Source of the DNA: an uncultured Eubacteriales bacterium
GTDB taxonomy: Bacteria; Bacillota; Clostridia; Christensenellales; Aristaeellaceae
Length of the DNA stretch: 64,000 bases
Direction: 5' to 3'
Assembly (NCBI GenBank): GCA_900318145.1
Contig: ONJM01000006.1
Span: forward strand, 79,073 to 143,072
This document shows, one piece after another, positions 52,277 to 62,428 of this stretch. Numbering within the stretch: position 1 is the stretch's first letter; every line of letters begins with the position of its first letter. Position numbers and translations under genes: made by a program. The notes below the pieces were generated by a model, which saw nothing but the letters and a program-made list of their open reading frames with translations, did not search any database and had not been told where the DNA came from.

Positions 52277-52455
52277 TTAGATTCTTCTAACCAGTTGAAT
52301 ATATTAGCATAATCTAACCAATTTTTCCATCATTTCACAGAAAAAAGGGGAAAAGGTCGATTTTAGACAAACGTTTCTTTTCAAGAAGTCAATAACAGGA
52401 TAACGCTGTCCCAAAATGTGTGTTAAGATTTTCCATGCAAGTTAGCAGTTGCTAA
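52277..52455. promoter_or_regulatory. Three TTAG-N6-CTAA dyads upstream of the iron-uptake cluster
   Basis: TTAGATTCTTCTAA (52277-52290), TTAGCATAATCTAA (52304-52317) and TTAGCAGTTGCTAA (52442-52455, extended to GTTAGC/GCTAAC). All share the same half-sites and six-base spacing within the 244-base region between the AraC-type gene and the FTR1 gene. They could be bound by the AraC-type protein or by a metal-responsive repressor; no clear -35/-10 pair was found for FTR1. Confidence 0.6.
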
Positions 52456-52487: not shown

Positions 52488-54239
52488 ATGCGAAAGAGGT
52501 TTTTCACTGGAATACTTTGCATTCTGGCAATTGCGGTGATGGCGTTTCCGGCGTGCGGCGCCGGGGAGGAAGCGGCTTCCACCCGCTGGGCGGATGCCGC
52601 GGACGAAATCGATAAATTCCTGGACGCCGCTTTTGAGGCATATCTGGACGGGGATGCCGCGGCAGCCTATAACAACGTAAGCAACGCCTATTTCCGGGTT
52701 TACGAAACGACAGGCTTTGAACGCCAGACCATGAGCTACATCAGCGGGAACCGCAAGAACGCGGTTGAAATGCAGTTTTCGGCGTGCAAGGCCGCTGTCA
52801 AAAAAGAAAATGAAACAACCGAGACGAAAATCGCCGTCCGCAGCGCGCTGGCAAAGCTGAAGGCGATGATCCGGGAGGACGGAAACAAGCTGGCAGCCAT
52901 GCAGGGCGGCGTACAGAGCGAAACCAGGTTTTATCTGCGCGGCGAACCGGCCGCGGCCGATCCGTACCCCGAATATTCCGCGGATCCGAACGCAGCGGCA
53001 AAGTACGCCAGCTGGTACGAGGCCGCGACGCTGGTCAAGGAGCTGCTGGACACCGCCTACATGGGGTATCTGGACAAAGACTTCGGCGCCGCGTCGGACA
53101 ACCTGAACACTGCGTATTATTCGGTATATGAAGAATCCGGACTGGATCACGCCATCTATAAAGATCTTTCACTCAAAGAGCGGCAGTCCATGGAAAAATG
53201 CTTTTCCGATCTGCGCGGCCTGGCGGCCTCCGGAGCTGAAAAATACCAGAAGAACAAATACCGCACGGCGACCGACAAGGCGAAAAACACCGTCCTGAAA
53301 TACGCGAAAGCCATCGACACAAAGAACGCCGAAGCGAAAGCCGCGGAAGCCGGTGAGAGTGCCGGCGCCGCGGAAGCGGGTGAAGCCGCGGAAGAAAAGC
53401 AGAGCGATCCGAAGCTCCTGACCTTCCTGGGCGCCTTCGGAATCATCGTGCGCGAAGGCCTGGAAGCGATCCTGGTGATCGCGGCGATTATCGCTTACCT
53501 GATGAAGAGCGGAAACAGCCGCAGCGTGAAGAACGTCTATATCGGCGCGGCTGCCGGTATCGCGGCAAGCTTCGCCGCGGCGGCGGTGCTGGCGTGGGCC
53601 AAGCAGGCGTTTGTAGGCGCCGGCCTGGCGCAGGAGGTTATTGAGGGAATTACCGCGCTGATTGCCGTCTGCGTGCTGTTCTATGTCAGCAACTGGATGA
53701 TTTCCAAAGCAGAGGCCGCCAGCTGGAGCCGGTTTATCGACGGAAAGGTTCAGTCCTCGGTGGAACAGGGCAGCGCGTTCGCCCTTGCCTTTACGGCGTT
53801 CCTGAGCGTTTTCCGGGAAGGCGCGGAAGTCGTGCTGTTCTATCAGCCGATGCTCAGCGAAGGTAATCCCGGAATGGTCTGGGCCGGTTTCGGCGCGGGA
53901 TGCGTCCTGCTGGTCTTCGTTTACCTGGCGATCACGAAACTGTCCATCAGGCTGCCAATCAAAGTCTTCTTTACAGCCACGTCCATCCTGATGGCGGTGA
54001 TGTGCGTCAGCTTCCTGGGCAGCGGCATCAAGGAGCTGGCGGAAGGCAATGTCTTTGACCTGACGCTGCGCGTTCCCGGCGTTCCGGAAAACGACGTGAT
54101 TCAGATCTTCGGAATCTATCCCTGGCTGGAAACGCTGGTGCCGCAGCTGATTCTGGCGATCGTTCTGCTGGTTACGTTCATGATCGCCCATTACCGCGGA
54201 AAGATCAGCGCCCTGAAGGCGCAGGCCGCCCAAAACTGA
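52488..54239 (+). CDS. FTR1-family iron permease with duplicated extracytoplasmic domain
   Basis: A 583-residue membrane protein. After a Sec signal (about 1-24) two related helical repeats follow (about 32-135 and 172-278; AFEAYLDGDAAAAYNNVSNAYFR versus AYMGYLDKDFGAASDNLNTAYY), then an Ala/Glu-rich linker and the seven-helix FTR1 domain. The iron-path motifs REGLE (322-326) and REGAE (443-447) are intact. It would move iron across the membrane with redox help from the P19 and DUF2318 proteins encoded next. The start is ATG 52488 with GAGGTGAG upstream; ATG/TTG-type extensions to 52449 cross an operator dyad and are rejected. Confidence 0.92.
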   Translation: MRKRFFTGILCILAIAVMAFPACGAGEEAASTRWADAADEIDKFLDAAFEAYLDGDAAAAYNNVSNAYFRVYETTGFERQTMSYISGNRKNAVEMQFSACKAAVKKENETTETKIAVRSALAKLKAMIREDGNKLAAMQGGVQSETRFYLRGEPAAADPYPEYSADPNAAAKYASWYEAATLVKELLDTAYMGYLDKDFGAASDNLNTAYYSVYEESGLDHAIYKDLSLKERQSMEKCFSDLRGLAASGAEKYQKNKYRTATDKAKNTVLKYAKAIDTKNAEAKAAEAGESAGAAEAGEAAEEKQSDPKLLTFLGAFGIIVREGLEAILVIAAIIAYLMKSGNSRSVKNVYIGAAAGIAASFAAAAVLAWAKQAFVGAGLAQEVIEGITALIAVCVLFYVSNWMISKAEAASWSRFIDGKVQSSVEQGSAFALAFTAFLSVFREGAEVVLFYQPMLSEGNPGMVWAGFGAGCVLLVFVYLAITKLSIRLPIKVFFTATSILMAVMCVSFLGSGIKELAEGNVFDLTLRVPGVPENDVIQIFGIYPWLETLVPQLILAIVLLVTFMIAHYRGKISALKAQAAQN

Positions 54240-55006: not shown

Positions 55007-55045
55007 TTGGCATGTTTATGATCTTTGCTTTTTGGAGGCCTTGCT

Positions 55046-56341
55046 GTGTTCAAGTATCTTTGGATGGTGGTCCAGGATCTCTTCCTTACAGTAACGTATG
55101 CCGCTCTGATGCATACGATGCTTTCCCGCGCGGCCAGGCGCAAAGGACGCCGGATCCACGGGGCGGGGCTCTGCGCCGGAGTTCTTGCCTCCGTTATCCT
55201 CGCGGTTCTGAAATACAATACGAAGCTGATTATTTCCAGTCACTGGAATCATTATATTTACGCGGTGCTGATGGCGCTGACGGTTCTCTTCCTTGTGTTT
55301 ACCGTCTGCTTCGCCAGGAGGGAGAAACAGTCCGCGGGAGCGGGCAGCGTCCTGCTGAGCTGCGCCGGCTCCCTGCTGTCCGCCGTGATGATCTTTTACT
55401 CGCTGCCCGGCGTGCTGCTGTATCCCTTCAGCTTCAATACCATGGGGCAGGGATATCTTTCCGCCTACTATCTTGTGCGCATGGCCGGATGGCTCGGCGC
55501 GCTGGTTCTGCTGCTGATCTATTCGCGCCTGCTTTCACGCTGCGCGCTGGAAATAAAGCCTTACGCGTGGGTTCCTTCCGTACTGAATTTCAATCTAATT
55601 GCTTTTTCCGTCTACTGTTTCGGGCGGTTCTTTGTTCCGTGGGTCAACCGGGCGAAATGGCTCGGGTGGTCTGTGAAATACAGTGACGAGGCGTACGGAT
55701 GGATCGGAAACTGGATGATGTTTACAGCAAAAAACGCCATGCTGTTCCACTGGATTGCCGCCGGAACGGCGGTCCTGCTGCTGGTATTCTTCTTCCGCCA
55801 GGGAACCATCCTGCGGGAGAAGTATGACAATCCGGCGCAGCTGCGCAAGCTGAAGGCGCGGAACCGGCGCTGGCGGAGGGGAGCCGCGGGGACGCTGGCC
55901 TGCATCCTGCTGTTCTGCCTGATCCTGACGGTTGTCAAAACAGACGACACCCGGCAGGTGGAGCTTTCGGCGCCGGAAAACTACACGGTGGACCGGGACG
56001 CGGGCGTGATTCTCGTTTCCGCTGAGGCTGTGAACGACGGGCATCTGCACCGCTTTGAATACAGGACTGAAAAGAATATCGACATCCGCTGGATCGTGGT
56101 GAAAAAGCCGAATTCCGCCAGCTACGGCGTCGGACTGGACGCCTGTGAGGTGTGCGGGAACGCCGGCTACTTCGAGCGGAACGGACAGATCATATGCAAA
56201 CGATGCGATGTGGTGATGAATATCAACACCATCGGGTTCAAGGGCGGGTGCAATCCGATTCCGCTGGCCTATGAAGTGAAGGACGGGAATCTTGTTTTCA
56301 GGCTGGAAGACCTGGCTGCGGGTGAGAAAGAGTTCAGATAA
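55046..56341 (+). CDS. DUF2318 iron-sulfur-type membrane protein of the FTR1/P19 system
   Basis: A 431-residue protein with seven or so transmembrane helices and a C-terminal extracytoplasmic domain containing two Cys pairs (ACEVCGNAGYF and ICKRCDVVM) plus a further Cys in FKGGCNPIP. This is the DUF2318 pattern of the protein encoded beside P19 and FTR1 in Campylobacter, thought to pass electrons to extracytoplasmic iron. The start chosen is GTG 55046 with GGAGG seven bases upstream; TTG 55025 is less likely. The last codons (GEKEFR stop) lie in the first copy of a 62-base tandem repeat. Confidence 0.88.
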   Translation: MFKYLWMVVQDLFLTVTYAALMHTMLSRAARRKGRRIHGAGLCAGVLASVILAVLKYNTKLIISSHWNHYIYAVLMALTVLFLVFTVCFARREKQSAGAGSVLLSCAGSLLSAVMIFYSLPGVLLYPFSFNTMGQGYLSAYYLVRMAGWLGALVLLLIYSRLLSRCALEIKPYAWVPSVLNFNLIAFSVYCFGRFFVPWVNRAKWLGWSVKYSDEAYGWIGNWMMFTAKNAMLFHWIAAGTAVLLLVFFFRQGTILREKYDNPAQLRKLKARNRRWRRGAAGTLACILLFCLILTVVKTDDTRQVELSAPENYTVDRDAGVILVSAEAVNDGHLHRFEYRTEKNIDIRWIVVKKPNSASYGVGLDACEVCGNAGYFERNGQIICKRCDVVMNINTIGFKGGCNPIPLAYEVKDGNLVFRLEDLAAGEKEFR

Positions 56342-56520
56342 GGGGGCTTTCCGATCGCCCCCTTAAACCCCTTCGGCTGCTGTGTGGGAAGAAGTTCAGA
56401 TAAGGGGGCTTTCCGATCGCCCCCTTAAACCCCTTCGGTCGCTGTGTGGGAAGAAGTTCAGATAAGGGGGCTTTCCGATTGCAGACCCCTTCGGATGCTG
56501 TGTGAGAAAGAATTCAGAAA
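56332..56520 (+). repeat. 62-base tandem repeats carrying hairpins, between DUF2318 and permease genes
   Basis: Copies begin at 56332, 56394 and 56456, the third shortened to 56 bases, with a remnant at 56512. Each starts GTTCAGATAAGGGGGC, and the first two hold a stem AAGGGGGC/GCCCCCTT; the third is decayed. The unit begins within the last codons of the DUF2318 gene and the end resembles that tail again (TGAGAAAGAATTCAGAAAGG), so it looks like duplication of a gene end. The last copy supplies the AAAGG site of the next gene. Confidence 0.85.
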
Positions 56521-56533
56521 GGATCCCGGTAAT

Positions 56534-57829
56534 ATGCTGTTTCGAATGATACGCGGTGTGCTCTTCCACCAGAAGGGAAAAATGCTGCTGATCGCGCTGA
56601 CGATTGCCCTGGGCGCGTCCCTTGCAACAGGGATGCTGAATGTTGTCCTGGGCGTGGAGGAAAAGGTCAACAAGGAACTGAAAAACTACGGCGCCAACAT
56701 CGTGGTAAAGCCCAAGGACTCCTCCCTGCTGTCGGATATCTATGATGTCGGCGGGGGAGCGGAGCTGAATACGGCCTATCTGCGGGAGAATGAGCTCGGA
56801 AAGCTGAAAACGATTTTCTGGGCGTTCAACATTGTGGACTTTACGCCTTTCCTGGATATGCAGGCGGAGCTGCCGGACGGCAGCACGGCGGAGGTTACCG
56901 GCACCTGGTTCAATCACCACCTGGACCTGCCGACAGGTGAAAGCCTGGACGCGGGCGTTGTCGGCATGCGCTCCTGGTGGGATATCACGGAAGGCCGCTG
57001 GCTGGATGAAAAGGACGCGAACGCCTCCGAAGAGATCATGGCGGGCGCGGTTCTGGCGGAACGCCAAGGCTGGCATGCCGGGGACGTGATTCATCTGAAG
57101 GGAAGCCGCGGGGAAAAGGATGTAACGCTCATTGGCGTATATGACGCGGGCGGAGACGAGGATGAGCAGATTTACGCGACGCTGGACCTGGTGCAGGCCC
57201 TGACGGACCGGGAGGACAAGGTGGCTTCGATTGAAGTGTCTGCGCTGACTACACCGGACAACGATCTGGCCCGCCGCGCGGCAAAGAATCCCGCCGCGCT
57301 CAGCAGCCGGGATTATGAAACCTGGTACTGTACGGCCTATGTTTCCGCGATCTGTTACCAGATCCAGGAAGTGATCACGGGTTCTGTCGCAACGGCCGTA
57401 CGGAAGGTTGCCGAAAGCGAAGGAACGATCCTGGACAAGACGAAGCTCCTGATGATCCTGATTACCGGGCTGAGCCTTGTCGGCTCCGCATTGGGCATCT
57501 CCAACCTGGTAACCGCCTCCGTCATGGAACGCAGCAAGGAAATCGGCCTGCTGAAAGCGATCGGAGCCAAAGACCGCTCCATCACGGGCGTGGTGATGAC
57601 GGAGATCCTGATCACGGCGCTGCTGGGATTCGCCGCGGGATATCTGATGGGCTTCGGGTTTGCGCAGCTGATCGGGCAGAGCGTATTCGGGTCGTCCATC
57701 GATATGGACCCGAAGGTTGCGCCGATTGTGGCAGGCCTGATCGCGCTGGTTACCGTCGCGGGCAGCCTTCCCGCGATTCGGATGGTGCTGCGTCTGCGTC
57801 CCGCTGAAGTCTTACACGGAGGACAGTAA
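56534..57829 (+). CDS. FtsX/MacB-type ABC permease, first of the iron cluster
   Basis: A 431-residue permease with four transmembrane helices: one near 15-38 and three near the C terminus (about 310-425), with a large extracytoplasmic loop between. The conserved cytoplasmic coupling stretch MERSKEIGLLKAIGAKD is present. The loop contains a short Cys-rich segment (WYCTAYVSAICYQI). Such permeases do not import small molecules; with their ATPase they drive conformational work outside the membrane, here probably linked to the FTR1/P19/DUF2318 iron system. Start ATG 56534 has AAAGG upstream. The next permease gene begins two bases after its stop. Confidence 0.87.
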   Translation: MLFRMIRGVLFHQKGKMLLIALTIALGASLATGMLNVVLGVEEKVNKELKNYGANIVVKPKDSSLLSDIYDVGGGAELNTAYLRENELGKLKTIFWAFNIVDFTPFLDMQAELPDGSTAEVTGTWFNHHLDLPTGESLDAGVVGMRSWWDITEGRWLDEKDANASEEIMAGAVLAERQGWHAGDVIHLKGSRGEKDVTLIGVYDAGGDEDEQIYATLDLVQALTDREDKVASIEVSALTTPDNDLARRAAKNPAALSSRDYETWYCTAYVSAICYQIQEVITGSVATAVRKVAESEGTILDKTKLLMILITGLSLVGSALGISNLVTASVMERSKEIGLLKAIGAKDRSITGVVMTEILITALLGFAAGYLMGFGFAQLIGQSVFGSSIDMDPKVAPIVAGLIALVTVAGSLPAIRMVLRLRPAEVLHGGQ

Positions 57830-57831
57830 TT

Positions 57832-59292
57832 ATGTCAAAGAAAAGAATGTTCCTGCGCATGGTTACGGCTTCGCTGCTGCGCAGGCGGTCGCGGATGCTG
57901 ATCGCGCTGCTGTCCATCGGAATCGGCGCGACGATTCTGGCCGGGCTGGTGACGATCTATGTGGACGTTCCCCGGCAGATGGGCGCCCAGTTCCGTTCCT
58001 ACGGGGCCAATATGCTGATCCTTCCGCAGGAAGGCGCGGTCCTGAACCGGGAAGGTCTCGCCGGCGCGCTCGAAAGCATTCCGCGGGATGAACTGATCGG
58101 CGCGGCGCCGTACCGCTATGTCCGCCTGGACATGACGTCCCGCCAGCAGTCCTTTACGGCGGCGGGTACGGACTTTTCCCAGGTGCCCAAAACAAGCCCC
58201 TATTTCAGCATTGAGGGGGCATATCCGGAAAACACCCGGGAGGTGCTGGTGGGAAAGAGCATTGCGGATACCATCGGCGTAAAGGCCGGCTCCACCATGG
58301 AGCTGACTTACCAGCCGGCTGCTTCTTCGGAAGCCGCGGGCCCGGAGGAAAGCCGGGTACCGGACGCGGAACTGGCCGGAAGCGCGGAGGGTTTCGGCGG
58401 CGGAATCGTTTATGTCAGCGTGAAGCTGGACGGGCAGGCGGCCATCGCGTCCGTTGAAATCAACGCCGGCACCCAGACGCCGGAATACGGCGGACGGGTT
58501 GCGGAGGACGAAGCTTTCCTGAATCAGTTTATCGGAAAAACGCTTCCGCTGACCCTGGGAGAGGACACAGACGCGCTCACCGGCGCGACGGTGACATCGG
58601 AAGCGGTGGTGCAGGCGATCAATACCGCCCGGGTGGCGGAAAACGCCGCGAAACCGCAGACGCTGAACTTTACGGTCACAGGCGTTCTGACCACCGGCGG
58701 GGAGGAAGAGGATTATGTATTCATGTCCCTGGAGGACATGGAAACCCTCACCGGATCGGAACAGCTGGATGTGGCTGAACTGAGTGTTTCCGCCGGCGCG
58801 GAACAGCTGGAAGCGTACGCGGACGCCATTACACAGGGCAGCAGCGGCATTCAGGCAAGGCTGGTCAAGCGCGTCACCCGGTCGGAAGCCTCCGTGCTGG
58901 AGAAGCTGACGGCGTTGGTGTTCCTGGTGACGCTGGTGGTGCTGCTGCTGACAATGATCTGCGTTTCCACCACCATGATGGCGGTGGTTTCCGAACGCCG
59001 GCGGGAGATCGGCCTGCGGAAGGCGCTCGGCGCTTCCGACGGATCCATCCGGGCGGAGTTCCTGGGCGAAGGGATGTTCCTGGGTCTGCTGGGCGGCGTC
59101 ATGGGCGGACTCCTCGGCTTTGTTTTTGCGCAGGTGGTCAGCGTGAACGTATTCGGCTCGTCGATCAGCTTCCAGCCGCTGCTGCTGCCCATCGCCGTTA
59201 TTGTTTCCATGCTGATTGCGGCGCTGAGCTGCCTGCTGCCCATTAAACGCGCGGTGGCGATCGATCCCGCGATTGTCCTGAAAGGCGAATGA
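57832..59292 (+). CDS. FtsX/MacB-type ABC permease with inserted FMN-binding domain
   Basis: A 486-residue permease with helix 1 (about 22-45), coupling motif SERRREIGLRKALGASDG and three C-terminal helices (about 360-475). In its extracytoplasmic loop, residues about 185-270 match the FMN-binding domain: GGGIVYVSVKLDGQ, VEINAGTQTPEYG and DALTGATVTS (247-256), the Dxx[S/T]GAT motif to which ApbE-type transferases attach FMN, on Thr253. A flavin held in an ABC permease loop outside the membrane would let the complex pass electrons, plausibly to ferric iron or P19. GGAGGAC precedes the ATG and overlaps the previous gene. No apbE is in the window. Confidence 0.88.
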   Translation: MSKKRMFLRMVTASLLRRRSRMLIALLSIGIGATILAGLVTIYVDVPRQMGAQFRSYGANMLILPQEGAVLNREGLAGALESIPRDELIGAAPYRYVRLDMTSRQQSFTAAGTDFSQVPKTSPYFSIEGAYPENTREVLVGKSIADTIGVKAGSTMELTYQPAASSEAAGPEESRVPDAELAGSAEGFGGGIVYVSVKLDGQAAIASVEINAGTQTPEYGGRVAEDEAFLNQFIGKTLPLTLGEDTDALTGATVTSEAVVQAINTARVAENAAKPQTLNFTVTGVLTTGGEEEDYVFMSLEDMETLTGSEQLDVAELSVSAGAEQLEAYADAITQGSSGIQARLVKRVTRSEASVLEKLTALVFLVTLVVLLLTMICVSTTMMAVVSERRREIGLRKALGASDGSIRAEFLGEGMFLGLLGGVMGGLLGFVFAQVVSVNVFGSSISFQPLLLPIAVIVSMLIAALSCLLPIKRAVAIDPAIVLKGE

Positions 59293-59363: not shown

Positions 59364-60038
59364 ATGAGCCTGCTTGAACTGAAAAATATTTCCAAAATCT
59401 ACGGGGAACTGAAAGCCCTGGACAACGTTTCCCTGCATGTGGACCAGGGCGAATGGGTCGCGATCATGGGCCCTTCCGGCAGCGGCAAGAGCACCATGAT
59501 GAACATTATCGGCTGCATGGACAAACCCACAAAGGGTGAGGTCCTGCTGGACGGCGTGGATATCAGCAAGGAGAGCAGCAAAAGCCTGACGGATATCCGG
59601 CGGGACAAGATCGGCCTGATCTTTCAGCAGTTCCACATGGTCAATTACCTGACGGCCGTGGAGAACGTGATGGTCAGCCAGTATTACCACTCCATGCCGG
59701 ATGAAAAGGAAGCGCTGGAGGCGCTGGAACGCGTCGGCCTGCGGGAACGGGCCCGGCATCTTCCGAGCCAGCTTTCCGGCGGCGAACAGCAGCGCGTCTG
59801 CGTTGCGAGGGCGCTGATCAACCATCCGGAACTGATCCTGGCGGACGAGCCGACCGGCAACCTGGACGAAGCCAACGAAAATATTGTCCTGGATCTGTTC
59901 GCGCAGCTGCACCGGGAGGGAACAACCCTGATCGTGGTTACGCACGACCCGGAGGTGGCGGATGCCGCGCAGCGTACGATTGTGCTGGAGCACGGCAAGG
60001 TGGCGCGCGAAGTCATCAATGAAAACTTCGGAAAGTGA
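59364..60038 (+). CDS. ABC transporter ATPase of the LolD/MacB type
   Basis: A 224-residue cytoplasmic ATPase with Walker A GPSGSGKST (36-44), Q-loop FQQFHMVNYLTAVENV, signature LSGGEQQRVCVARAL and Walker B LILADEPTGNLD. It closely fits the ATPases that power FtsX/MacB-type permeases, and it is encoded 71 bases after the FMN-carrying permease, so it should drive that pair. GGGGGGAGGAA precedes the ATG. Its stop overlaps a possible GTG start of the next gene. Confidence 0.92.
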   Translation: MSLLELKNISKIYGELKALDNVSLHVDQGEWVAIMGPSGSGKSTMMNIIGCMDKPTKGEVLLDGVDISKESSKSLTDIRRDKIGLIFQQFHMVNYLTAVENVMVSQYYHSMPDEKEALEALERVGLRERARHLPSQLSGGEQQRVCVARALINHPELILADEPTGNLDEANENIVLDLFAQLHREGTTLIVVTHDPEVADAAQRTIVLEHGKVAREVINENFGK

Positions 60039-60049
60039 CGGGGCCGCAT

Positions 60050-60451
60050 ATGAGAAAACAGATCATTCCGGGATGTATCATGCTGATTTCCGCGCTGGTG
60101 ATCGCCATCGGAAGCTTCACTTTTCTGAGCCCCTGCGTCCATGACGACGGAAGCGTGGGCGCCTGCTGGTGGGCAGGCCGGGCGCTTCTCGGCCTGGGCT
60201 GCCTGCTGGCTGTGATCGCTGTGGAGGCGCTGCTTTCCGCGCGCGCCCGTTTCGGGGCATACCTGAGCGGGGCGGCTGTCAGCGTGCTGGGCGTCCTGAC
60301 GCCCGGAACGCTGATCAGCCTCTGCCGCATGAGCAGTATGCGCTGCCGGGCGGTGACGCAGCCCGCCATGATCATTCTGTTCGCAGCCGCCGGTCTGGCT
60401 TCGCTGGCCGGCGCGTGGCTCTGCGCCAGAGCGGGGAAAGGAATAAAGTAA
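60050..60451 (+). CDS. DUF4418 small membrane protein
   Basis: A 133-residue protein with four predicted transmembrane helices (about 8-28, 42-62, 72-92, 102-122) and a SPCVHDDGSVGACWWAGRA segment after the first helix, with two Cys that could bind a metal or form a disulfide. It matches DUF4418, which travels with FtsX-type ABC genes in Clostridia; no function is known. ATG 60050 gives a good hydrophobic N terminus; GTG 60035, overlapping the previous stop, is an alternative. It lies seven bases before the next permease gene. Confidence 0.75.
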   Translation: MRKQIIPGCIMLISALVIAIGSFTFLSPCVHDDGSVGACWWAGRALLGLGCLLAVIAVEALLSARARFGAYLSGAAVSVLGVLTPGTLISLCRMSSMRCRAVTQPAMIILFAAAGLASLAGAWLCARAGKGIK

Positions 60452-60458
60452 TCCGGCG

Positions 60459-61661
60459 ATGAGAATATTTTCATTATCTGTGAAAAACCTGGTCCGGAAG
60501 CCGGGGCGGACGGCCGCGCTGGCGCTTCTGACCGCCTTCCTCGCGCTGTCCGTATTCGGCGGGTCCGTCGTTGTGCTTTCCCTGCGCACCGGGCTTCAGA
60601 GCCTGGAGGCCAGGCTCGGCGCCGACATTATTCTCGTTCCTTCCGAGGCGCAGAGCAAGGTCAGTTTTCAGAACATGTTCCTGCAGGGAACCACCGGCGC
60701 GTTCTACATGGACGCCGCCGTGACGGGGAAGGCCATGGAAGTGCCCGGCGTCGAAAAGGCCGCGCCGCAGACCTTTCTGGCGTCGCTGAAAGCGGACTGC
60801 TGTTCCGTGAAGATCCAGGTGATCGGGATTGACCCTTCCAGGGACTTTACGGTTCAGCCCTGGATCGCGCGCAGCCTGACCGGGGAACTGGGAGACATGG
60901 ACGTGGTCGTCGGCTGCAGGGTGGAAGCCGGCATCGGGAAAATCCTGCGGATTTATGAGCAGCGGTGCAAGGTCATCGCCTGCCTGGAGCCCACGGGAAC
61001 AGGGCTGGATACCGCCGTTTACTGCAATATGGACACCATGAAAACCCTGCTGGCCGCCGCGGAGGAAAAAGGCGTCAGCCACAGGATATCCAGCGGGGAC
61101 GACTCCGTGGTTTCCGCGGTCTATATCAAAGTGAAGGACGGATATGACATCGGCGCGGTCAATTCGGCGCTGACCGGAAAGCTCCGGAAGGTAACAGCGG
61201 TCAGAACCCGCTCCATGATTACGGGGGTTTCCGACAGCCTGGCCGGAATCAGCCGCACCGTAACGGGAATGATTATCGCGGTCTGGGTGCTGGCGTTTGT
61301 CATTCTTTTGCTGGCGTATATCCTGATCGTGCGGGAACGCTCCAGGGAGTTTGCCGTTCTCCGCCTTCTCGGCGCGTCCAGGAGCATGCTGGGCCGGATG
61401 GCGCTGACGGAATCCGCGGTATGCGGACTGGCCGGAGGCATTGCCGGCACCGGCGCTGCCGCGATCGGGGTTTTCGCGTTTTCAGCGCTGATCGAAAACA
61501 GCCTGGGGCTTCCGTACCTGATGCCGGGGACCGGCACGGTTCTTCTTCTGGCAGCGGGCACAGTCCTGCTGTCCGCCGCGGTTTCCGCGCTGGCGGGAGG
61601 ATTCTCGGCATGGCGCCTCAGCAGGGTCAATCCGGGAACCGCGCTCCGGGACGGCACCTGA
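60459..61661 (+). CDS. FtsX-type ABC permease, third of the cluster
   Basis: A 400-residue permease with helix 1 (about 15-38), an extracytoplasmic loop with no FMN motif, the coupling region RERSREFAVLRLLGASRSM and three C-terminal helices (about 270-385). A Cys pair in the loop (LKADCCSVKI) and a further Cys in VVGCRV are present. The start is ATG 60459, but the ribosome site is weak, so translation may be coupled to the DUF4418 gene seven bases upstream. It pairs with the ATPase encoded next, giving a second FtsX-type ABC unit. Confidence 0.85.
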   Translation: MRIFSLSVKNLVRKPGRTAALALLTAFLALSVFGGSVVVLSLRTGLQSLEARLGADIILVPSEAQSKVSFQNMFLQGTTGAFYMDAAVTGKAMEVPGVEKAAPQTFLASLKADCCSVKIQVIGIDPSRDFTVQPWIARSLTGELGDMDVVVGCRVEAGIGKILRIYEQRCKVIACLEPTGTGLDTAVYCNMDTMKTLLAAAEEKGVSHRISSGDDSVVSAVYIKVKDGYDIGAVNSALTGKLRKVTAVRTRSMITGVSDSLAGISRTVTGMIIAVWVLAFVILLLAYILIVRERSREFAVLRLLGASRSMLGRMALTESAVCGLAGGIAGTGAAAIGVFAFSALIENSLGLPYLMPGTGTVLLLAAGTVLLSAAVSALAGGFSAWRLSRVNPGTALRDGT

Positions 61662-61747
61662 TCATGCCGGCGGCAGGCCGGTTCCCGCGGAGCGCCGCGG
61701 GCGAAACAGGCGGAATGACCGCCGTGAACGGAGGAAGGAGTACGGAT

Positions 61748-62428
61748 ATGCTGCTTCAGGCGGAAAACATCAGCAGGACTTTTTTCCGGAATGCCGGAAG
61801 CTCCAATTACTTTTACGCTGTTTTTCCCATGAGCATTGAAATCCCGCCGGAGACAGCCACTGTCCTGATGGGGAGAAGCGGGTCCGGAAAAACAACGCTT
61901 CTGAATATGCTCTCGGGGATTCTTCAGCCTTCGGACGGAAAGGTCCTGATGGACGGCACGGATCTGTACAGCCGGAAGGACGCTGAGCTTTCCCGCTTCC
62001 GGAATGAACGGATCGGCGTGATCCCGCAGGCAAGAAGCGCGGTGGATACGCTGACGGTGGCGGAGAACATCCTGCTTCCGGGAAAGCTGTACGGAAAAAC
62101 AGCGCCCGCGGAAGAAGCAAGGCGCTGGATGGAAACATTTGAAATCGCGCATCTGGCGGACGCAATGCCCCGGGAGCTTTCCGGCGGAGAACTGCGGCGC
62201 ATGGCGATTGCCCGGGCAATCGTGCAGGACCCGGACATACTTTTCGCGGACGAGCCCACGGGCGACCTGGACGATGAAAACACGGAAAAGGTTTTATCCG
62301 CGCTGTATGCGTACGCCCACCGGAAAAACAAGGCCGTGTTTATCGTGACCCACGAGAACGACGCGGTGAAATACGCGGACCGGCTTTTCAGAATGGAGAA
62401 CGGCCGGATGCTGCAGCAGGAAAACTGA
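61748..62428 (+). CDS. ABC transporter ATPase, second of the iron cluster
   Basis: A 226-residue ATPase with Walker A GRSGSGKTT (about 40-48), signature LSGGELRRMAIARA and Walker B ILFADEPTGDLD. A variant Q-loop reads VIPQARSAVDTLTVAENI. The start is ATG 61748 with GGAGGAAGGAG eight bases upstream; the frame stays open for over 300 bases upstream through the end of the permease gene, but that extension has no homology-like sequence. It is the last gene of the cluster and ends at a strong shared terminator. Confidence 0.9.
   Translation: MLLQAENISRTFFRNAGSSNYFYAVFPMSIEIPPETATVLMGRSGSGKTTLLNMLSGILQPSDGKVLMDGTDLYSRKDAELSRFRNERIGVIPQARSAVDTLTVAENILLPGKLYGKTAPAEEARRWMETFEIAHLADAMPRELSGGELRRMAIARAIVQDPDILFADEPTGDLDDENTEKVLSALYAYAHRKNKAVFIVTHENDAVKYADRLFRMENGRMLQQEN

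Follow-up and report, generated by a model that had tools for sequence, protein, structure and literature searches.

In Campylobacter jejuni each of the genes fetA, fetB, fetC and fetD, which belong to an iron-uptake system built around the iron-binding protein P19, is required for normal iron-limited growth, and the products of fetE and fetF promoted oxidation in extracts (PMC10783030). In 2018 the seventh gene of such clusters was found to encode a thioredoxin in most of the Proteobacteria examined, and a separate seventh gene for a protein binding flavin mononucleotide (FMN) was reported in the same paper, in which the substrates of the permeases are given as unknown (PMC6083913). The 64,000 nucleotides from an uncultured Eubacteriales bacterium of the family Aristaeellaceae analyzed here, in the following called the window, harbor a cluster which by gene content and order (fetM-P-A-B-C-D) is the known Fet/P19 iron-uptake system. 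Its fetC gene (57832-59292, plus strand), coding for the second FtsX-type permease of 486 residues, contains an inserted FMN domain. We propose that in this system an RnfG-like FMN domain within FetC, tethered to the ATP-binding cassette (ABC) transporter, has taken the place of a separate extracytoplasmic electron carrier, a reading which we hold to be fairly probable.

A survey in eLife put the number of P19 clusters with an FMN-binding gene at 260 in 2021, some of which may be fused, and left the role of the FMN or thioredoxin protein undefined (PMC8238504). For the redox partner the authors of both papers suggested a function in iron reduction (PMC6083913, PMC8238504). In Bifidobacterium breve transposon mutants in the sif cluster and in apbE were impaired under ferrous chelation; the FMN-binding gene sifE of Bifidobacterium was among those struck, and sensitivity of the sif mutants was seen with ferrous chelators but not with the ferric chelator employed (PMC5449479). 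Flavin as such is not new to P19 clusters, for which it is known as a separate gene, and the original prediction, which had been made from the sequence of the window, is to be corrected on this point. What appears to be new is the integration of the flavin into FetC, which does not appear in the passages seen of the papers reporting the separate gene and of which no description was found in the literature searched, supplements not covered.

The flavin domain of FetC

A Pfam search with FetC yielded the FtsX C-terminal domain at residues 365-479 (79.3 bits, cut-off 25.5) and, as had been predicted, a full FMN_bind domain within the permease, at residues 190-266 (37.1 bits, E 5.2e-9, cut-off 22). 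In a whole-genome profile search the latter stretch (58399-58629, plus strand) scored 40.7 bits. The flavinylation motif D247-A-L-T-G-A-T253 is intact and agrees with the rule D-x-x-[ST]-G-A-[ST] of FMN_bind proteins flavinylated by ApbE (PMC12052999); the codon of Thr253, the predicted flavinylation site by this rule, is located at 58588-58590 (plus strand), exactly where the original prediction had placed it. Also correct was its statement that the neighboring permeases (56444-57829 and 60459-61661) lack the domain, neither giving an FMN_bind match in Pfam. Compared with unfused FetC the host permease is continuous on either side of the insert, and the additional residues, approximately 164-275 by alignment and hhalign (58321-58656, plus strand), are confined to one loop. 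The unfused relatives have about 345-480 residues, many of them around 380.

Genomes bearing P19 were collected from the genus of the window genome (24 of 45), from a class sample (4 of 291), a phylum sample (17 of 398) and an order sample (10 of 396), each of which includes the window genome. Within the genus an FMN domain with intact motif is present in FetC of all 23 clusters that cover fetC, the window included; the contig of the 24th stops within fetB. All three genomes of the sister genus that bear P19 in the order sample have the fusion, so that for the two genera of one family it is present in 26 of the 26 clusters for which fetC is available. The order sample also contains two P19-bearing genomes from other families, one (L205) with an unfused FetC and a separate FMN gene and one with an incomplete cluster. 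A scan of contigs with the FetC alignment, itself a sample of which the best 80 loci among the matches listed were kept, added 69 Fet clusters or parts thereof (L120-L188); the remaining 11 (L189-L199), generic FtsX permeases, were left out of the count. Of these 69, among the matches listed, three are fused (Christensenella sp. metagenome-assembled genome (MAG), UBA4379, and two Clostridiales/Clostridia MAGs), which brings the fused clusters to 29.

Directly after the ATPase gene no separate FMN gene was found in any of the 29 fused clusters within the DNA covered. For the 23 clusters of the genus this applies to the covered part of about 1.1 kb behind the ATPase gene; in L098 and L105 the contig stops shortly after that gene. 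One member of the sister genus (L206) has an additional separate gene for an FMN-plus-flavoprotein, on the opposite strand and beyond a second ATPase. The picture differs in the comparators, of which there are 84: 17 from the class and phylum samples, the 66 unfused loci listed and L205. The class and phylum samples had given 19 further P19 loci, two of them (L077 and L092) without an intact ATPase; among the 17 intact clusters none is fused, and the ATPase gene is followed in eight by a separate FMN gene, in two by a gene for a protein with two CxxCH motifs and in seven by neither. The 66 listed loci have an FMN gene in 45 cases, a two-CxxCH gene in two and another gene in 17, while one ends with its contig and one has no ATPase in the DNA covered. 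Taken together, none of the 84 comparators is fused and 54 (8 + 45 + 1) have the separate FMN gene, among the matches listed and as found with a purpose-built profile rather than Pfam, by which very divergent domains may be missed. Since there are near-duplicates among the comparators and all fused clusters may go back to one event, no significance test is offered. The genes with two CxxCH motifs after the ATPase, four in all (L084:7988-8260, L086:5237-5470, L160:6564-7004 and L167:6420-6875), code for short proteins, lipoprotein-like in the two class and phylum clusters, that are probably c-type haem proteins, namely di-haem carriers.

Within the 29 fused proteins, the window included, D247, G251, A252 and T253 are invariant; a chance motif or a frameshift artefact was rejected on the ground of this conservation. 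Invariant are 18 of 93 positions of the FMN domain and 46 of 173 of the extracytoplasmic part of the host; the mean identity is 0.62 in the FMN domain, 0.64 and 0.62 in the two host parts and 0.39 in the linker. At the level of sequence, the architecture, its conservation and the lack of a separate FMN gene at the usual place can be regarded as established.

By sequence the nearest solved domains are domain 1 of CbFMN4 (8p2b, E 1.5e-4) and RnfG (3dcz, E 0.0013; 7zc6, E 0.025). In a tree of 59 domains the insert groups with the FMN domain of an RnfD of the same genome and with the first FMN domain of an NrfA-type cytochrome (support 99/96), and 40 domains from the seventh gene form one side of another branch (98/93). 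The support was 91/96 in a tree of 60 rows with one very long branch, an additional FMN gene of L139, which was dropped for the tree of 59. Both trees comprise eight of 26 fused domains and 40 of 54 domains from the seventh gene, the 14 left out being mostly near-duplicates. The insert is therefore likely to stem from RnfG-type domains and not from the separate seventh gene; since a clade of fused and seventh-gene domains is not rejected in the approximately unbiased test (p 0.142), this origin is likely rather than established.

In a tree of FetC without the insert, 16 fused sequences and one unfused sequence (L124) form one clade with full support (100/100). Monophyly of the fused sequences only is not rejected (p 0.169), and a single origin of the fusion is not proved. 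L124, from a MAG labelled Lachnospiraceae, has the same gene order and no FMN gene after the ATPase; it may represent the state before the fusion, or a loss. Upstream of fetM it has a gene (L124:1723-3651) for a 643-residue protein composed of an FMN domain and a flavoprotein-like remainder.

The insertion site and the proposed role

The AlphaFold2 model of FetC, computed from 44 sequences, has a mean predicted local distance difference test score (pLDDT) of 82 and a predicted template modelling score (pTM) of 0.64. It shows an N-terminal helix (residues 19-57), an extracytoplasmic domain that carries the insert, and three further helices (346-388, 403-441 and 451-475); together with the FtsX domain found by Pfam this is the topology of a type VII ABC permease, in which the extracytoplasmic domain lies between transmembrane helix 1 and transmembrane helices 2-4. 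The top Foldseek matches of the model are LolE and MacB (E down to 7e-19, TM-score about 0.4-0.6), with the haem exporter HrtB lower, and a profile search gave near full-length matches to LolF and MacB and also found LolE. MacB_PCD was not matched by Pfam at E 0.01, in spite of these profile and Foldseek matches to LolF, MacB and LolE. When FetC was aligned by hhalign with LolC of Escherichia coli (probability 96.8%), residues 168-275 fell between LolC residues 179 and 180, that is, at the end of the Hook (residues 167-179) by which LolC recruits LolA (PMC10865981). The flavin domain thus appears to be inserted at the site used by LolC for its soluble partner, and for FetC docking at this site is a prediction. 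In 81 unfused FetC proteins the loop is the most variable one in length (0-101 residues; standard deviation 19.6 vs. 4.9 for the next). In several Actinomycetota (L145, L155 and other Bifidobacteriaceae/Actinomycetaceae) it consists of about 35-101 residues of low complexity.

Our proposal can be put in the following way. An extracytoplasmic ApbE would attach FMN to Thr253, and the flavin would be reduced by other carriers, most simply by the Rnf complex of the cell and its flavin domains. Next to the FTR1 channel it would then give its electrons either to ferric iron on P19 or to the cysteine/Fe-S domain of FetA. A potential of −184 mV is low enough to reduce many ferric complexes. The multi-FMN relative for which this value was determined (PMC10339131) thus suggests that such a flavin is suited to electron donation to ferric iron. 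Since the insert is in the loop where LolC docks a soluble partner, the tether may fix a contact that in other species is made transiently by a separate protein, and movement of the FetB/FetC arms driven by ATP may subsequently bring the flavin into position or set free P19 loaded with iron. The fixed contact and the arm movement are the least certain steps of this mechanism.

Several observations weigh against this proposal. The docking idea is weakened by the alignment with LolE of E. coli (98.3%), which puts the insert in the equivalent loop of LolE, a protein whose domain does not bind LolA in vitro (PMC10865981), and by Foldseek and the profile search, according to which FetC is if anything closer to LolE than to LolC; in addition, the loop has a median length of only three residues in the 81 unfused FetC proteins. 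The FMN part of the model has block means of pLDDT of 55-75 and the linker of 40-50; folded alone, the domain reaches a confidence of 58, and its model has no significant structural match, the best being RnfG (7zc6_G, E 0.16). In seven of the 17 class and phylum clusters and in 17 of the 66 listed loci the slot after the ATPase holds neither an FMN nor a two-CxxCH gene by the profile and patterns applied, from which it follows that the carrier is not always encoded there. The 29 fused clusters come from one family, perhaps from one event, and hence are not independent of one another. Finally, the FetC of L124, although unfused, is placed within the fused clade or next to it, and the FMN domain is constrained, yet less so than the extracytoplasmic part of its host: in the comparison of the window with its six closest relatives the ratio of nonsynonymous to synonymous substitution rates (dN/dS) is about 0.16-0.35 for the domain, 0.08-0.22 for the host part and 0.09-0.39 for the linker.

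Some of these observations would also be expected if the flavin domain were a neutral graft, tolerated in a permissive loop without any role in transport. No other loop of FetC varies as much in length as the one at this site, which in other species accommodates up to 101, mostly low-complexity, residues; an unfused FetC stands inside or beside the fused clade; and the dN/dS of the domain is above that of the host extracytoplasmic part. Such a graft would not explain, however, why the motif residues are invariant in 29 of 29 proteins, why dN/dS is well below 1 and why the separate FMN gene is coincidently absent, and we consider it highly improbable.

A further point against the proposal concerns the direction of the electrons. 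The FTR1 permeases of yeast and EfeU work with Fe(II) oxidation. Since, moreover, FetE and FetF promoted oxidation in extracts (PMC10783030), the electrons could flow in either direction; the chelator sensitivity of the Bifidobacterium sif mutants, to ferrous chelators and not to the ferric one used, fits ferrous uptake (PMC5449479). In the reverse case Fe(II) delivered by P19 would be oxidized upon entering the FTR1 channel, as is the case with FTR1-type permeases elsewhere, and the tethered flavin would be the oxygen-free acceptor from which the electrons return to the carriers of the cell. At a potential of −184 mV a flavin would accept electrons from most Fe(II) complexes only poorly, unless iron is bound very tightly at the ferric site. 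With the covalent FMN relative at this potential (PMC10339131), and with iron reduction suggested for the redox partner by the authors of the 2018 and 2021 papers (PMC6083913, PMC8238504), oxidation by the flavin seems unlikely to us.

The flavin could also act without any contact to iron, by keeping the cysteine/Fe-S center of FetA reduced, which may be the job of FetE and FetF in Proteobacteria. Transfer from a flavin to a disulfide usually requires a dithiol partner near the flavin, and as reductants of disulfides the c-type haem proteins that occupy this slot in some clusters would be unusual. On the other hand, the FetA domain of C. jejuni has two CxxC motifs (PMC10783030), the slot is filled by thioredoxins in most of the Proteobacteria examined (PMC6083913), and in our comparators it is filled by FMN genes in 54 of 84 and by two-CxxCH proteins in four, among the matches listed. 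On balance a flavin serving only FetA is distinctly unlikely.

Reduction of iron by a tethered flavin might finally be taken one step further. FetBCD could be an ATP-gated electron-transfer machine which moves no solute and in which the tethered flavin swings between extracytoplasmic carriers and the iron of P19, FetA or FetM; elsewhere the separate redox protein would dock at the same loop of FetC, in the manner of LolA at the Hook of LolC. We regard this as a modest possibility at best, the more so as the position equally corresponds to the loop of LolE, to which LolA does not bind. If true, the MacB/LolCDE fold would be put to a use that we do not know from elsewhere.

The surrounding cluster, its regulation and the genome

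The genes around fetC are all on the plus strand. The cluster begins with fetM, which codes for an FTR1-family iron permease with a long N-terminal part (52488-54239, listed from a TTG at 52449; Pfam FTR1, 86.8 bits), followed by fetP for the iron-binding protein P19 (54322-54906; Iron_transport, 157.8 bits), by fetA for a membrane protein with a C-terminal FtrD-like domain, formerly DUF2318 (55025-56341; 101.6 bits), and by fetB for the first FtsX/MacB-type permease, which has no FMN domain and whose start is uncertain (56444-57829; FtsX 75.1, MacB_PCD 52.2 bits). FTR1, P19 and DUF2318, which the original prediction had named as neighbors, were thereby all found in the same cluster. Behind fetC comes fetD for the ATPase of the Fet ABC transporter (59364-60038; ABC_tran, 125.1 bits). 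Relatives have the FtrD-like protein, the two permeases and the ATPase in the same sequence of genes. Directly after it, at the slot where many relatives have the separate FMN-binding gene, is a gene for a DUF4418 membrane protein (60035-60451; 70.3 bits); a separate redox gene for a thioredoxin or FMN-binding protein, common but not universal in this place, was not found after the ATPase in the window. With the redox domain in FetC instead of in a separate gene, the cluster is filed as a variant of the Fet/P19 system. No electron source was recognized within the Fet cluster.

The DUF4418 gene is the first of an accessory ABC module (60035-62428), which continues with a third FtsX/MacB-type permease, again without FMN domain (60459-61661; FtsX 52.5, MacB_PCD 40.3 bits), and an ATPase with uncertain exact start (61691-62428; ABC_tran, 114.5 bits). 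The module recurs near Fet clusters in several phyla, in an order that varies among loci (e.g., L124, L144, L153).

Upstream of fetM a pattern search revealed three palindromes of the type TTAG-N6-CTAA, at 52277-52290, 52304-52317 and 52442-52455 (no strand assigned), as candidate operators of a metal regulator. The TTG at 52449, the mechanically assigned start, lies within the third palindrome, so that fetM more probably starts with the ATG at 52488. In 27 loci of the two genera, 24 of them with at least one site, the regions from 260 bases before to 150 bases after the start of the fetM open reading frame, 11,097 bases in total, contain 57 sites, whereas the other 332,089 bases contain 18. 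When the spacer was set to 3-5 or 7-9 bases none was found either near fetM or elsewhere, and with a spacer of 10 two in each, a result which guards against mere A+T richness as the cause of the enrichment. The palindrome is similar to DtxR/IdeR-type boxes, and the window genome has a gene of the DtxR family (52 bits). The candidate operators support a role in metal uptake independently of the gene names. Together with the FetMP-FetABCD gene order they provide the iron-uptake context for the ATP-driven redox device for iron that the original prediction had envisaged.

An ApbE, which was to be looked for elsewhere in the genome, is encoded there by one gene; its lipobox-like LCGC signal, read by eye, suggests a lipoprotein. 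ApbE was found in 40 of the 45 genomes of the genus (one match marginal), among them all 13 of good quality, and in 22 of the 23 with a fused FetC, the exception being G036, which is 73% complete.

The Rnf complex of the window genome was recognized by RnfC, an RnfD fused to an FMN domain and an NrfA-type FMN protein. The latter two belong to an Rnf-type operon on contig C35 (L117:7232-10204 and L117:12325-13860, minus strand). The NrfA-type protein is a cytochrome c (Cytochrom_C552) of 991 residues in which five FMN_bind stretches were found; in the last of them the motif is altered. ResB and a protein for cytochrome c assembly are encoded next to it. The 2021 survey mentions RnfG proteins of Christensenellales that carry multiple haems and multiple flavins (PMC8238504).

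Comparison with known systems

The natural fusion names the site at which flavin and FetC are joined and indicates that, at least in this lineage, the two are held together. The apparent replacement of a separate flavin protein by this domain, in one family of uncultured bacteria from gut and rumen, hints at the place at which the electrons are put to use. This can be tested, since the fusion offers a soluble-loop construct for the direct study of flavinylation and of electron transfer to P19.

FetMP-FetABCDEF of C. jejuni has FTR1, P19, the FtrD-like protein, the two FtsX-type permeases and the ATPase in the same order as the window (PMC10783030, PMC6083913). There, however, the seventh and eighth genes encode separate thioredoxins, whereas in the window the flavin domain is within FetC and the module of DUF4418, FtsX permease and ATPase comes next. 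SifABCDE of B. breve, with BfeUO, likewise has two FtsX permeases, an ATPase and an FMN-binding protein, SifE, which is separate (PMC5449479). The surveyed P19 clusters with an FMN-binding gene have the same gene set plus a flavin (PMC8238504).

With LolCDE, LolF and MacB, all of type VII, FetC has in common the fold, the membrane topology and the position of the loop; these transporters have no flavin domain, and the loop binds LolA in LolC but not in LolE. With the lipoprotein releaser LolCDE the comparison covered the position of the loop, and FetC is not classed with it. The closest solved kin of the insert itself are RnfG and the multi-flavinylated proteins such as CbFMN4 (PDB 8p2b), none of which is located within an ABC permease.
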